A DNA stretch of 64,000 nt, from NCBI RefSeq assembly GCF_018141405.1, contig NZ_CP058648.1, positions 511,001 to 575,000 on the forward strand, given 5' to 3'. Of the stretch, positions 40,964-51,200 are shown in pieces (within the stretch, counting starts at the first letter, position 1; every line of letters begins with the position of its first letter). The notes below the pieces were generated by a model, which searched no databases, had not been told where the DNA came from, and saw only the letters and a program-made list of their open reading frames with translations. Source of the stretch: Serpentinicella alkaliphila. Lineage in GTDB: Bacteria; Bacillota; Clostridia; Peptostreptococcales; Natronincolaceae. A program made the position numbers and the translations under genes.

Positions 40964-41014
40964 AGGGACGGTTCTTTTTGACTCAAAGAAAAAGAGTCAA
41001 AAAGAACCGTCCCT
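40964..41014. repeat. Palindromic GAACCGTCCC-type repeat element
   Basis: Perfect 21-bp arms (40964-40984 and 40994-41014), AGGGACGGTTCTTTTTGACTC-type, enclose a 9-nt loop, with short GAGAC/GACTCA flanks. Palindromes with this GGGACGGTTC core recur widely in Clostridia genomes and look like REP/MITE-like elements. The element runs into the 3' end of the aroK fusion gene, providing its final codons and TGA. In RNA it would form a very stable hairpin separating aro and pcrA transcripts. Confidence 0.8.
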
Positions 41015-41773
41015 TTGACTCACAATTTCCATACATATATCTTCAATACTTTTATTATCAGTATTAACTATAATATCTGCACAATCCATATATAATTTTC
41101 TTCTTTTTTCCAGTAACTCTTTAATTTCATCTTCCGATTTTGATTTTAATAGAGGCCTACTACTATCTTGCTTCAATCTAGTATATATAGTCTCCGGTTT
41201 AGCAGTTAGCAGAAAAACTTTTCCATTCTTTTTTAAGCTTAAAATATTATTGTTATTTAAAACTATTCCACCACCACAGGATATAACAGAGGAGCTCTTT
41301 GCCTCTAGTTCTATAACACATTTACTTTCTAGTTCTCTAAAGTATTGCTCGCCCTTACTTTCAAAAATACTTCCGATAGACATTCCTTGGCTTTTTTCTA
41401 TGGTTTCATCTATATCTATATATTCCATAGCTAGCATCGAGGCTAATTGCTTCCCTACAGAGGTTTTACCTGTACCCATAAACCCAACTAATACAATATT
41501 GTTAGGAAAAAGAAGCTTAGTTTGAACACCTTTGCTTATTCTCATAATCTCAACAAACAATTTCTGAACAGGATCAATAAACTCTTTGTTATTTACCTCA
41601 TCAGCTACTTTATTTAAAACCTCCTGCTCTCTATTTAAATGAAGTATTGGTATACCTAATTCTTTTTTCACATTTGCAACATCAATGACTAAATTTAATC
41701 TCTTTTCAAATAAAGTTACAATTTCCTTATCAATTGAATTTATCTGATCTCTAATATCATCTAGGTTTTTCAA
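40997..41773 (-). CDS. aroK: Chorismate mutase-shikimate kinase fusion
   Basis: The 258-residue bifunctional protein has an AroQ-type chorismate mutase domain at residues 1-88 (LDDIRDQINSIDKEIVTLFE with Arg, then KELGIPILHLNREQEVL) and a shikimate kinase domain at about 92-250 with P-loop GFMGTGKTSVGK, IDIDETIE, YFRELES and SCGGGIVL. It would convert shikimate to shikimate-3-phosphate and chorismate to prephenate. The last residues SQRDGSF and the stop come from the adjoining palindromic element. It is the last gene of the aro operon, 4 bp after aroB. Confidence 0.9.
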   Translation of the reverse strand: MKNLDDIRDQINSIDKEIVTLFEKRLNLVIDVANVKKELGIPILHLNREQEVLNKVADEVNNKEFIDPVQKLFVEIMRISKGVQTKLLFPNNIVLVGFMGTGKTSVGKQLASMLAMEYIDIDETIEKSQGMSIGSIFESKGEQYFRELESKCVIELEAKSSSVISCGGGIVLNNNNILSLKKNGKVFLLTAKPETIYTRLKQDSSRPLLKSKSEDEIKELLEKRRKLYMDCADIIVNTDNKSIEDICMEIVSQRDGSF

Positions 41774-46111: not shown

Positions 46112-47222
46112 TCTCCTCCCTAATAAAAGTTAAGTGATAATTTGCATTTTTAAACACAGTGTAAGCCTTCATTTGTTCCTCTTTATTTTTAAATCCTATC
46201 TTAATTGCCCCTTGTTCATCTTCTCTAGCGTGTAGGATTTCAATATCTTTAATATTAATTTTCTGTTCCCCAAGTAATCTCGTTAAGTCACCTAACATAC
46301 CTGGCTTATCCTCTACCCCTATAAATACTTCAAATACTTGTGGCATTGAATCTTTTCTATGTTTTGGTATACTTTCCCTTATTAGCTTAGCTTTTCTTAG
46401 AAGTTCATCCATGGTCCTTGAGTCATCCTTAACTAATAAATCCTTAAATTCTTTAATTAAAATTTCACAAGACTCAATACTACTAATTAACTCCTCTTTA
46501 TTTGAAAGAAATATATCTCTCCACATATCTGGATTACCTGAAGCTATCCTAGTAGTATCTCTAAATCCACCACCTACATAGGGTATATATGAAATATTTT
46601 TATCAAAATCTAATAAATTTGCTAAAATTACTGCCATTAAATGTGGCGTATGACTTATTCGAGCCACAATCTTATCATGCTTTTGTAAGGATGTTACTAC
46701 GGGATAGGCCCCTATGGCTTCTATAACTTTCTTTAATTTATCTAATTCCTCTGACAAAACATCTTGCTTATCTAAAGTCAAAAAGTAATATGCATTTTCA
46801 AACATATAAGGATTAGATGCACTTATCCCTGATTTTTCTGACCCAGCCATAGGATGTCCGCCTATAAACTTAGTATTTGCTGGTAAATATGTATTCGCCA
46901 GCTTATGGACATAGCCCTTAACACTTCCAACATCAGTTATAATTGTATCTCCTTTAATATGTGTACTCATTTCTTTAAATATAGATTCATAATATCTTAA
47001 GGGTGTAGCTATTATTATTAGATCTGCATGCTCGACTGATTCTTTTATACTATCAGCAAAAATGTCAACTACCTGTAACTCCTTCGCAACCTTTATATTA
47101 TCAGAATTTAAATCTCTTCCAATGATTTGACCCTTAAACCCTGAATTTTTCAATGCTAAGGCTATTGATCCCCCTATAAGTCCTAAACCTATAATGCTAA
47201 TTTTTTTAAAGTCATTCATCAT
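46089..47222 (-). CDS. tyrA: Prephenate dehydrogenase with ACT domain
   Basis: The 377-residue enzyme has an NAD-binding GLGLIGGSIALALK motif at residues 12-25, the catalytic region GGHPMAGSEKSGI near 120 and SHTPHLMAVILA, and a C-terminal ACT domain (about 295-370; GVEDKPGMLGDLTRLLGEQ) for tyrosine regulation. It is the first gene of the leftward aro operon, with a TTGACA promoter 70 bp upstream. Confidence 0.94.
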   Translation of the reverse strand: MMNDFKKISIIGLGLIGGSIALALKNSGFKGQIIGRDLNSDNIKVAKELQVVDIFADSIKESVEHADLIIIATPLRYYESIFKEMSTHIKGDTIITDVGSVKGYVHKLANTYLPANTKFIGGHPMAGSEKSGISASNPYMFENAYYFLTLDKQDVLSEELDKLKKVIEAIGAYPVVTSLQKHDKIVARISHTPHLMAVILANLLDFDKNISYIPYVGGGFRDTTRIASGNPDMWRDIFLSNKEELISSIESCEILIKEFKDLLVKDDSRTMDELLRKAKLIRESIPKHRKDSMPQVFEVFIGVEDKPGMLGDLTRLLGEQKINIKDIEILHAREDEQGAIKIGFKNKEEQMKAYTVFKNANYHLTFIREENESANNE

Positions 47223-47267
47223 ATTACCCCTATCTAAAATACATTTTTGTACCTTGATGTTTACAAT

Positions 47268-47296
47268 ACTTTAACTTATGAAATTTTAGATGTCAA
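47268..47296 (-). promoter_or_regulatory. Sigma-A promoter of the tyrA-aroK operon
   Basis: On the minus strand TTGACA (47291-47296) is followed after exactly 17 bp by TAAAGT (47268-47273), about 45 bp upstream of tyrA. Confidence 0.7.
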
Positions 47297-47348
47297 GATA
47301 ATTATTATTCAGAATTTTTTTATTTTTCTAATTTTAACAAATTTACTG

Positions 47349-47377
47349 TTGACATTTAAAATTATTTCTTATATACT
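47349..47377 (+). promoter_or_regulatory. Sigma-A promoter of leader peptide-aroF
   Basis: TTGACA (47349-47354), a 17-bp spacer and TATACT (47372-47377) place the start of transcription near 47384, some 27 bp before the leader ATG. It is divergent from the tyrA promoter. Confidence 0.85.
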
Positions 47378-47410
47378 CAATTACAATAAATTAAAAAAGA
47401 GGTGAAAAAC

Positions 47411-47569
47411 ATGTTGAATCTTAGAAAGCTTACAAAACTTAATAACTTTTATTTTAACTTTTACTGGGGCTTTTATTTTTATAGCGCTGGTTATTTTGCA
47501 TACGAAAAATTTAATAGGAATGAAAACTTTCTAAGAAAATATGTTCTAAATATAAATTGTTATGCTTAA
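47411..47569 (+). CDS. Phe/Tyr-rich leader peptide of aroF (attenuator peptide)
   Basis: A 52-codon ORF starts at ATG 47411 behind GAGGTG (47399-47404, 6-nt spacing) and a strong promoter. Residues 13-34 contain 7 Phe, 6 Tyr and 1 Trp (FYFNFYWGFYFYSAGYF then AYEKF), in all 8 Phe and 8 Tyr over 52 residues; all Phe codons are TTT. It is followed by a Rho-independent terminator and then aroF, the first enzyme of the aromatic pathway. Ribosome stalling at these codons under Phe/Tyr shortage would free codons 40-46 to pair with the terminator arm. The attenuation role is inference; the ORF, signals and order are seen directly. A true small membrane peptide is the alternative. Confidence 0.8.
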   Translation: MLNLRKLTKLNNFYFNFYWGFYFYSAGYFAYEKFNRNENFLRKYVLNINCYA

Positions 47570-47626
47570 TCACTAAGCATTATATTGAAAGATAAAAGAG
47601 AACTCTTAGATGGGTTCTCTTTTTTT
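47530..47626 (+). promoter_or_regulatory. aroF attenuator: terminator and candidate antiterminator
   Basis: The terminator is a 9-bp stem 47597-47605 / 47612-47620 (AGAGAACTC / GGGTTCTCT, one G-T) with a 6-nt loop and a T run to 47626. A competing fold pairs leader bases TCTAAG (47530-47535) and GTTCT (47543-47547) with CTTAGA (47605-47610) and AGAAC (47599-47603), which would disrupt the terminator. A second CTTAGA at 47420-47425 could instead capture TCTAAG when the leader is not translated. The terminator is clear; the alternative folds are predicted by eye. Confidence 0.75.
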
Positions 47627-47694
47627 ATATATTTTACAAAACTGAAGATAATTATGGAAAAATAGTTTAAAATATAAAATGGGAGGAATTAAAA

Positions 47695-48702
47695 ATGGTA
47701 ATAGTAATGAAGCATGCTGCACCACAAGAAATAATTGAAAAGATTCACAATAAAATGGTTGAGTTGGGATGTAAGGTTCATAAATCACAGGGCGAAAACT
47801 ATTGTTTACTAGGCTTAGTAGGCGAGACAAGTAAAATACAGGAGTCACAGTTATTAGCCAATCCTTATGTAGATAGAGTCCTTAGAGTACAACATCCATT
47901 TAAATTAGCAAGTAGACTTTTCCATCCTGAAGACACAGTTATCGACATCGAAGGACATAAAATAGGTGGAAAAAACAAACCTTGTATAATGGCAGGGCCT
48001 TGTTCTGTTGAAAGTGAGGACCAACTATTAACTATTGCTCGAGCAGTAAAAGAAAGCGGAGCACAACTATTACGTGGTGGAGCGTACAAACCAAGAACTT
48101 CACCATACAGCTTTCAAGGTCTAGGTGAGGAAGGATTAAAGTTATTACTTAAAGCTAAAGAGGAAACAGGTATGCCAATTGTAACAGAGGTTATGGATAC
48201 AGAAACCTTTGAAACTGTAGAAAAATATGCTGACATTCTTCAAATTGGTGCCAGAAATATGCAAAACTTCCCTTTACTAAAAAAAGCTGGTAGAAGTAAT
48301 AAGGTAATACTTCTTAAAAGAGGATTATCCGCAACTATAGAAGAATTCCTAATGTCCGCAGAATATATTATGTCTGAAGGAAACCCAAATGTTATTCTAT
48401 GTGAAAGAGGAATTAGGACCTTTGAAACATACACAAGAAATACCTTAGACATAAGTGCAATTCCAATAATCCAAGAACTAAGTCATTTACCTATTATTGT
48501 TGATCCAAGTCACGCAACTGGTAAATGGTCTACAGTTGAACCATTATCTAAAGCATCTATAGCTATCGGTGCCCATGGCCTAATAATTGAAGTACACCAC
48601 GAACCAGAGCTAGCTCTATCAGATGGTGCCCAATCACTTAAGCCAGAAAAATTTAATCGACTAATGAATTCCATAACTAAAATTTCCAATATGAACGATT
48701 AG
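47695..48702 (+). CDS. aroF: DAHP synthase, type I-beta with N-terminal regulatory domain
   Basis: The 335-residue 3-deoxy-D-arabino-heptulosonate-7-phosphate synthase condenses PEP and erythrose-4-phosphate. Residues 1-65 form the ferredoxin-like/ACT-like regulatory domain that in Thermotoga-type enzymes mediates Tyr/Phe inhibition. The barrel follows with MAGPCSVESEDQLL, RGGAYKPRTSPYSFQG, the metal residues in DPSHATG and EVHHEPE. GGGAGG precedes the ATG. It is controlled by the upstream attenuator, so both feedback inhibition and attenuation are likely. Confidence 0.95.
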   Translation: MVIVMKHAAPQEIIEKIHNKMVELGCKVHKSQGENYCLLGLVGETSKIQESQLLANPYVDRVLRVQHPFKLASRLFHPEDTVIDIEGHKIGGKNKPCIMAGPCSVESEDQLLTIARAVKESGAQLLRGGAYKPRTSPYSFQGLGEEGLKLLLKAKEETGMPIVTEVMDTETFETVEKYADILQIGARNMQNFPLLKKAGRSNKVILLKRGLSATIEEFLMSAEYIMSEGNPNVILCERGIRTFETYTRNTLDISAIPIIQELSHLPIIVDPSHATGKWSTVEPLSKASIAIGAHGLIIEVHHEPELALSDGAQSLKPEKFNRLMNSITKISNMND

Positions 48703-50436: not shown

Positions 50437-50616
50437 CTAGATTCCCCACAATGTTCCGCCTGTAAATAAAACTACAAGTAACAAGAAGAAGAATAATAAG
50501 CTGTCTGAATCTGTAAATAATCTACAGTTACAGAAAATTATAACTAAGATTAAGAAAAAGAATAACACAGCTGTATTTTGACCTGCAAATATACCTCTTA
50601 AACCTTCAGCACCCAT
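50437..50616 (-). CDS. Hydrophobic mini-protein, tandem family member A
   Basis: The 59-residue ORF has an AAGGAGG site. Two near-copies of one hydrophobic motif, VLFFFLILVIIF (residues 17-28) and LLFFFLLLVVLF (40-51), are separated by CNCRLFTDSD. It is clearly paralogous to the next two genes and is too short to have been noticed as a gene by length alone. Two membrane-spanning hairpins or a self-assembling film protein are possible; function is unknown. It is transcribed away from its paralogues' upstream promoter and may be co-transcribed. Confidence 0.78.
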   Translation of the reverse strand: MGAEGLRGIFAGQNTAVLFFFLILVIIFCNCRLFTDSDSLLFFFLLLVVLFTGGTLWGI

Positions 50617-50679
50617 AATCTTACCTCCTTAAAATTATATTTAGGATTATAGGGTAGATTTCTCTACCCTATTAATTAA

Positions 50680-50877
50680 CTACCAGCATCCTCTTCCGCC
50701 ATAGCTGAATAAAAATACTAATAATAAGAAGAAGAATAATAAGCTATCGCCATCTGTTCCTCTGAAAATTCCACAGTTACAGAAGATAATAACTAGCAAT
50801 AAGAAGAAGAATAATAAACTACTCTTTCCACCAAAAATACCGCCAATTAAACTTTCTTTTTTAACTAATTCACTCAT
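50680..50877 (-). CDS. Hydrophobic mini-protein, tandem family member B
   Basis: The 65-residue paralogue has GGIFGGKSSLLFFFLLLVII and a second block SLLFFFLLLVFLF, separated by CNCGIFRGTDGD, ending GGRGCW. AAGGAGG precedes the ATG. The leading charged segment MSELVKKESLI is unlike A and C. The two-block layout, the Cys between them and the same order as in A show a common ancestor. Function unknown. Confidence 0.8.
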   Translation of the reverse strand: MSELVKKESLIGGIFGGKSSLLFFFLLLVIIFCNCGIFRGTDGDSLLFFFLLLVFLFSYGGRGCW

Positions 50878-50942
50878 TTATTTAACCTCCTTATATAAAA
50901 TATTGATTTACTTATTCTCACTATATACTATGTTGCTTTACT

Positions 50943-51200
50943 TTAAATGGTGATACCGAATAAACCAGTTCCACCGAATATTACAACAAGTAGTAGGAAG
51001 AAGAATAATAAACTACTTGAATCTGTAAACAATCTACAATTTAAGAAAATAATCACTAACAACAAGAAGAAGAATAATAAACTTGTTGTTCCTCCAAATA
51101 TTCCTCTTCCTGGGCCTGTAATCGGACTTGTTATTGGGCTAGTTATTGGACTAGTTATTGGACCTCCTGGTGGGCAGCATGCTGTATTACTCATATTCAC
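50943..51200 (-). CDS. Hydrophobic mini-protein, tandem family member C with PITS repeats
   Basis: The 85-residue paralogue begins ACCPPGGPITSPITSPITS and continues PITGPGRGIFGG, i.e. a fourfold PIT(S/G)-P repeat encoded by 12-bp units at 51115-51162. Two hydrophobic blocks SLLFFFLLLVIIF and SLLFFFLLLVVIF follow, with LNCRLFTDSS between. It is the first gene in transcription order and has a AAAGGAG site. The Cys-Cys and Pro-rich head resemble spore-surface proteins only in general style. Function unknown. Confidence 0.8.
   Translation of the reverse strand: MNMSNTACCPPGGPITSPITSPITSPITGPGRGIFGGTTSLLFFFLLLVIIFLNCRLFTDSSSLLFFFLLLVVIFGGTGLFGITI
51115..51162. repeat. 12-bp tandem repeat encoding PITS units
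   Basis: Four 12-bp units (two identical CTAGTTATTGGA plus two variants) code for the PITS tetrapeptides in mini-protein C. Copy number may vary between strains. Confidence 0.85.

Follow-up and report, generated by a model that had tools for sequence, protein, structure and literature searches.

A short open reading frame (ORF) rich in Phe and Tyr codons, followed by an intrinsic terminator, was found in front of the DAHP synthase gene aroF in the 64,000-nt stretch of DNA analysed here (the window). Read from its sequence, the arrangement is very likely a ribosome-mediated transcription attenuator that senses a shortage of charged tRNA-Phe and tRNA-Tyr and, weakly, of tRNA-Trp. The leader and terminator were kept together in 116 distinct instances from Clostridia and Negativicutes, and comparison of these supported the attenuator mechanism proposed earlier in a first-pass annotation of the same DNA. 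We also consider it probable that a previously undescribed family of such attenuators runs an aromatic synthesis and uptake regulon across the Clostridia and Negativicutes, taking in aroF, aroQ, aroK, chorismate mutase (CM)-shikimate kinase, aroE, pheA, SSF and SBF transporters and a LarA-type racemase. In this family, the control codons would sit in the loop of a hairpin nested in a helix that brings together the start and the end of the ORF, with tandem copies in some genomes.

The aroF locus

The intergenic region 47223–47694 separates a minus-strand aromatic operon from aroF, which is divergently oriented on the plus strand. The product of aroF (47695–48702), the gene under control, was confirmed to be a DAHP synthase (NCBIfam PRK08673, E 1e-154). 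The minus-strand unit consists of tyrA-aroA-pheA-aroC-aroB-(chorismate mutase/shikimate kinase), with the names read from the translations. The ORF at the end of this operon (40997–41773, minus strand) resembles a chorismate mutase-shikimate kinase fusion, and in two relatives (L164 and L170) a fusion of this type is preceded by the leader.

On the plus strand, a sigma-70-type promoter for the leader/aroF transcript is predicted at 47349–47377 (TTGACA-17-TATACT, 11 of 12 consensus matches), and a Shine–Dalgarno sequence (GAGGTG, 47400–47405) lies 5 nt before the ATG at 47411. The leader ORF (47411–47569, stop codon TAA at 47567–47569) has 52 codons and encodes MLNLRKLTKLNNFYFNFYWGFYFYSAGYFAYEKFNRNENFLRKYVLNINCYA, and the same leader was found in relatives. 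Its control region, codons 13–34 (47447–47512), includes 7 Phe, 6 Tyr and 1 Trp, making 14 of 22 residues aromatic. The terminator (47594–47630) has a 12-bp stem (47594–47605/47612–47623), or a shorter one when A-U pairs at its flanks are excluded, together with a 6-nt loop and a T-rich tail, and a terminator scan found one such structure where 0.1 was expected. The first-pass annotation had described the same promoter and ribosome-binding site, the same aromatic counts and a terminator with a T tract ahead of the DAHP synthase gene, and all of these proved to be present, with the terminator stem (47594–47623) counted as 12 bp.

The chance of encountering such a run was estimated within the 64,000-nt window. 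The figure of 14/22 was the highest among 584 small ORFs, with the runner-up at 11/22, and when the intergenic region underwent 2000 dinucleotide shuffles, only one reached it. A chance aromatic run was ruled out by this result together with the conservation in 116 instances. Folding of the window's sequence also predicted a small hairpin of 7 bp across the leader stop codon (47562–47580). Elsewhere in the window, three successive small ORFs on the minus strand (50437–51200) share near-identical LLFFFLLLVIIFCNC...SLLFFFLLLV motifs and are likely to encode paralogous hydrophobic small proteins.

Leader and terminator in related genomes

Relatives of aroF were taken from whole genomes and genome contigs, and most of them had an aromatic ORF and a terminator upstream. 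The open frame, start codon and Shine–Dalgarno site were present in more than 100 instances, and the equivalent terminator was located a median of 37 nt past the leader stop codon in the 116. The core of the leader is YYFNFYWGFYFFSAGYFAWKK in Alkaliphilus/Geosporobacter-like genomes and FYFSWGYYYFSAGYFFCKK in Clostridium, and related forms were found in Negativicutes such as Acidaminococcus and Dialister. In front of more distant aroF genes, the aromatic leaders were shorter and lacked the W-G/S-A-G core, as in MNKKFYAFAYNYYYYFTNVK (L083). Leaders of this type, about 18–27 aa long, were seen in L083, L084, L086, L087, L107, L109 and L110; a terminator separates them from aroF, the W-G/S-A-G hairpin is missing, and they are possibly a simpler or independently evolved attenuator.

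A profile (HMM) built from 37 leaders found a sole strong copy in the window's own genome (E 1.6e-16). At the thresholds used, it matched 94 of the 297 genomes searched for the order and 23 of the 398 searched for the phylum, though the weaker of the phylum matches are doubtful because there is no aroF near them. When the regions upstream of aroF were aligned, as the first-pass annotation had suggested, conservation was seen for the run of aromatic codons, for the terminator and for the alternative pairing alike, and the compensatory changes were lineage-specific. The parts of the element, their conservation and their compensatory pairing are established by these comparisons.

Alternative pairings within the leader transcript

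Three segments of the transcript take part in alternative pairings. Region 1, at the start of the leader ORF (47408–47428, comprising 47408–47415 and 47419–47428), was defined from folds and the swap control and pairs with region 2. Region 2 corresponds to codons ~40–46 (47527–47547, CUUUCUAAGA...GUUCU) and pairs with either region 1 or region 3, and region 3 (47599–47610) is part of the terminator 5′ arm and loop. The 1:2 helix, or anti-antiterminator, joins the start of the ORF (47408–47428) to its end (47527–47545) through 10 + 8 bp (47527–47536 and 47538–47545). The 2:3 helix, or antiterminator, is made up of 7 bp (47530–47536/47604–47610) and 5 bp (47543–47547/47599–47603). The pairing of 47530–47547 with 47599–47610 had been placed correctly in the first-pass annotation, and its description of this fold and the terminator as mutually exclusive was borne out by the conservation of 2:3, with compensatory changes, across relatives. 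A two-state attenuator with 2:3 and 3:4 alone was extended after the 10-bp pairing between the ORF start and end was seen. The 1:2 anti-antiterminator, the control-codon hairpin and the wider aromatic regulon are absent from the earlier annotation.

Each of the 116 instances was compared with versions in which the arms were swapped. For 1:2, the energy was -23.0 kcal/mol with the instance's own arms versus -14.1 kcal/mol with swapped arms, and its own arms were better in 105 of 116; for 2:3, the corresponding values were -10.2 and -7.6 kcal/mol, with own arms better in 102 of 116, although swap and shuffle controls remove shared ancestry only in part. When the longest unbroken helix was scored, p<=0.05 was obtained in 63/116 instances against shuffled region 2 (for 2:3) and in 58/116 against shuffled region 1 (for 1:2). 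An energy-based run on 58–59 instances gave a mean z of -1.75 for 2:3 and -2.63 for 1:2.

Segments 2 and 3 change together as lineage-specific matched sets, namely CTAAGA/TCTTAG, CTAATGAG/CTCATTAG and CCGAGA/TCTTGG. The reading frame of CTAATGAG is not constant, as it encodes (S/P)NE in 24 instances and an FLMS-type sequence in seven, and this use of different frames points to selection at the RNA level. Across the family, ORFs were more strongly folded than their codon-preserving shuffles (mean z -1.9, 46 of 80 below -1.64); for the window's own ORF, the same comparison revealed no extra folding (z 0.03). RNAalifold applied to a plain MAFFT alignment recovered only the hairpin around the control codons (P2), probably because the spacer lengths and frames shift, and the pair and swap tests on individual instances were used in its place.

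The control codons lie in a conserved hairpin

The P2 hairpin (47463–47491) is formed by 47463–47467/47487–47491 and 47469–47471/47483–47485 and encodes W-G ... S-A-G. The codons for W-G and for S-A-G/S are the two arms, CUGG.GCU(control codons)AGC.CCAG, and after the codons were read in this way the idea that W-G/S-A-G is a conserved peptide signal was dropped in favour of an RNA hairpin. Variants of the arms, CUUG:CAAG and CCGG:CCGG, preserve the pairing, and some of the compensatory changes alter the encoded amino acids. Over the 116 instances, the seven P2 pairs were 97.5% paired versus 95.1% after arm swaps (maximum 96.2% in 1000), a narrow margin, given how similar most arms are to one another, that nevertheless falls outside the control range. 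The hairpin may pace the ribosome or pause RNA polymerase.

Between W-G and S-A, the 116 instances contain 220 Phe, 192 Tyr and 2 Trp codons and seven others, so that 414 of 421 specify F, Y or W. None of the 421 is an Ile, Asn or Ser(TCN) codon, which argues that selection acts on the amino acid and not on U-richness. The loop varies in length from 1 to 7 codons and Phe and Tyr swap freely within it, and selection is therefore not for one peptide. These counts also bear on a narrower form of attenuator that senses chiefly one amino acid, Phe, with the Tyr and Trp codons passive. A precedent comes from Corynebacterium glutamicum aroR, which, according to a review, responds to Phe and not to Tyr (PMC11802643), but a signal mainly from Phe is rather unlikely here, as Tyr is nearly as frequent as Phe among the loop codons and the two replace each other readily. 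It is compatible with the main explanation in everything except specificity.

Conservation of the non-aromatic residues W-G and S-A-G across distant lineages might instead indicate a TnaC-like arrest peptide, in which the nascent W-G...S-A-G would halt the ribosome upon encountering a free aromatic amino acid or metabolite. We regard this as very unlikely, given that these residues are encoded in the two arms of an RNA hairpin whose compensatory changes sometimes alter the amino acids, that the aromatic positions tolerate F/Y exchange and changes in length, and that the C-terminal part is read in differing frames. Invariant nascent-peptide residues of the TnaC type were not seen in the 116 instances, where F and Y interchange and RNA pairing accounts for W-G/S-A-G. 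The extensive conserved RNA pairing across the ORF would also suit a translation-independent RNA switch, either a novel riboswitch or a protein-bound leader, in which the open frame is incidental. However, the P2 loop codons are 98% aromatic, a Shine–Dalgarno site, start and open frame accompany them in more than 100 instances, loop length and the choice of F or Y change in codon steps, unlike in an aptamer, and Rfam gave no credible match with the threshold relaxed to E<=5, making such a switch extremely unlikely.

T-boxes and other known RNA elements

Amino-acid control in Firmicutes is usually ascribed to T-boxes, TRAP and CodY, and leader-peptide attenuation is deemed rare. No Rfam 15 family scored above gathering in the window, or at loci L001 and L050. 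The T-box (RF00230) had no match in the window at gathering, nor in 47200–47750 at E<=5, and a T-box or other Rfam RNA at the locus was rejected, as nothing near the gathering score was present among hits listed to E<=5. The leader family thus adds an RNA element that is missing from Rfam.

In the window's genome, 17 T-boxes were found above the cut-off, including those of pheS, tyrS, trpE and trpB, and none of the 17 is at aroF. A single genome thereby splits the labour, with T-boxes for these genes and a leader peptide for the entry step of the pathway. In Pelosinus propionicus, a T-box (L089, 2627–2874) takes the place that the leader peptide has before other aroF genes, so that one way of sensing tRNA is exchanged for another. 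The two devices are thus both employed, with the leader peptide given to aroF in the window. T-box leaders resemble the leader system in that they too occur in Firmicutes, respond to uncharged tRNA and act through a terminator, but the T-box reads the tRNA directly whereas the leader system does so via the ribosome.

Predicted response to ribosome position

The locus and its relatives were found to contain a leader ORF with a Shine–Dalgarno site, control codons, a 3:4 terminator and compensatory 2:3 and 1:2 pairings. We infer that the leader is translated, that the ribosome stalls within it and that aroF responds to the supply of aromatic amino acids. If the leader is not translated, 1:2 would form and hide region 2, and the terminator would form, leaving aroF off. 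When charged tRNA is ample, the ribosome would reach the stop codon with region 2 either covered or paired again with region 1, and the terminator would again form. A ribosome halted in the aromatic codons would hold regions 1 and 2 apart, allowing 2:3 to form and RNA polymerase to enter aroF.

A stalled ribosome was simulated by placing a ribosome at the SA codon, deleting all RNA up to its leading edge and folding the transcript from there as far as the terminator loop. In the free RNA folded to the same point, 1:2 was formed and there was little 2:3. With the ribosome at the SA codon, the expected number of 2:3 pairs increased from 0.4 to 12.1 in the window's member of the family and from 3.0 to 8.2 on average, with a rise in 106 of 116 instances. 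With the ribosome at the stop codon, the terminator was the sole structure remaining beyond it. This modelled response of the folding to ribosome position is the classical attenuator logic. Region 2 ends a median of 26 nt ahead of the stop codon, and hence a ribosome that finishes the leader may leave region 2 uncovered; the strong 1:2 helix would then recapture region 2 behind it. More than 100 natural variants provide material on how the position of a ribosome becomes a choice between RNA structures.

Other genes preceded by the leader

In relatives, the leader and terminator were also found before genes other than aroF. Pfam-confirmed cases are aroQ (L165), aroK (L168), aroE (L176), an SBF-family transporter (L202) and CM-shikimate kinase fusions (L164 and L170), the latter followed by aroD as read from the sequence. 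The pair precedes pheA and then aroF in L174, L179 and L194 (also read from the sequence), and an SSF symporter and then an aminotransferase in L167; the leader also precedes an SSF symporter in L169, L184 and L186. In L175 it is found, with the terminator, before a gene for a LarA-family protein and a symporter-like ORF, and LarA-like and symporter genes were also found behind the leader in L177 and L193. The gene behind the leader in L166 is masked with N in the record. The presence of the same leader before several shikimate-pathway and transport genes indicates a regulon-wide device. It makes the leader family a ready marker for aromatic genes, including the transporters and the LarA-like racemase, and we infer that aromatic or aryl-lactate compounds are candidate substrates of the LarA-family proteins and the transporters.

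Two leader-terminator units in series precede aroF-type genes in L180 and L183. Tandem units were also found in L181, where the downstream gene is putative, and a wider-spaced pair in L182, with spacings of about 290–960 nt among these four. Such arrangements speak against a functional protein of small size, such as a membrane micropeptide, that is co-transcribed with aroF and separated from it by a housekeeping terminator. The conserved hydrophobic aromatic core would agree with a protein of this kind, but its probability is negligible, as the leader-terminator pair accompanies different genes and occurs in tandem, the RNA element is retained while the peptide's end changes frame and shows no conservation at the protein level, and the 5′ arm of the terminator co-varies with the ORF.

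Comparison with known attenuators

Judged on sequence features, the element has all those of a ribosome-mediated attenuator, which is a known kind; the family, its architecture and the regulon appear to be new. In Escherichia coli, pheL-pheA and trpL-trp have control codons in a leader ORF, mutually exclusive 1:2, 2:3 and 3:4 structures and a terminator before the first gene. The clostridial leaders share the control codons, the exclusive segments and the position of the terminator ahead of the gene, but their regions 1 and 2 are placed at the start and near the end of the ORF, respectively, such that 1:2 encloses the whole control region. They also differ in that the control codons are in the loop of a conserved hairpin and are mixed Phe and Tyr.

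A search of the literature found no description of a clostridial aroF attenuator, although older comparative attenuator work may hold one. Nothing on aroF was stated in papers dealing with start sites and riboswitches in C. difficile, and attenuation of the aromatic pathway is unmentioned in a published review of C. difficile riboswitches. The view in the first-pass annotation that no example is known before a clostridial DAHP synthase therefore stands so far as none was found, but the design itself is already known before a DAHP synthase gene in C. glutamicum and Acholeplasma. In C. glutamicum, the leader peptide/attenuator aroR precedes the aroF operon (Neshat et al. 2014, cited in PMC11802643). 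As outlined in that review, it resembles the clostridial element in that an aromatic leader peptide stands ahead of a gene for DAHP synthase and ribosome stalling raises transcription; it differs in being actinobacterial and in having what the review describes as a Phe-Tyr-Phe stretch (PMC11802643). The 1:2 helix with the ORF end and the control-codon hairpin are clostridial features that the review's account of aroR does not mention (PMC11802643).

The uORFC-13-1 motif was reported before aroF in Acholeplasma (Brewer et al. 2021, PMC8632094), and likewise is a predicted uORF with one or more Phe codons beside a terminator. It has 24 representatives, from Acholeplasma and environmental sequences only, and is set apart from the clostridial leaders here by that description (PMC8632094); it has at least one Phe codon, whereas the clostridial leader has long Phe/Tyr runs (PMC8632094). 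Among Firmicutes, the leucine-rich attenuator peptide of the Staphylococcus aureus ilv-leu operon is an example of leader-peptide attenuation (PMC5794164). It is similar to the aroF leader in being ribosome-mediated, and differs in that it concerns branched-chain amino acids and a single operon and has another sequence (PMC5794164).
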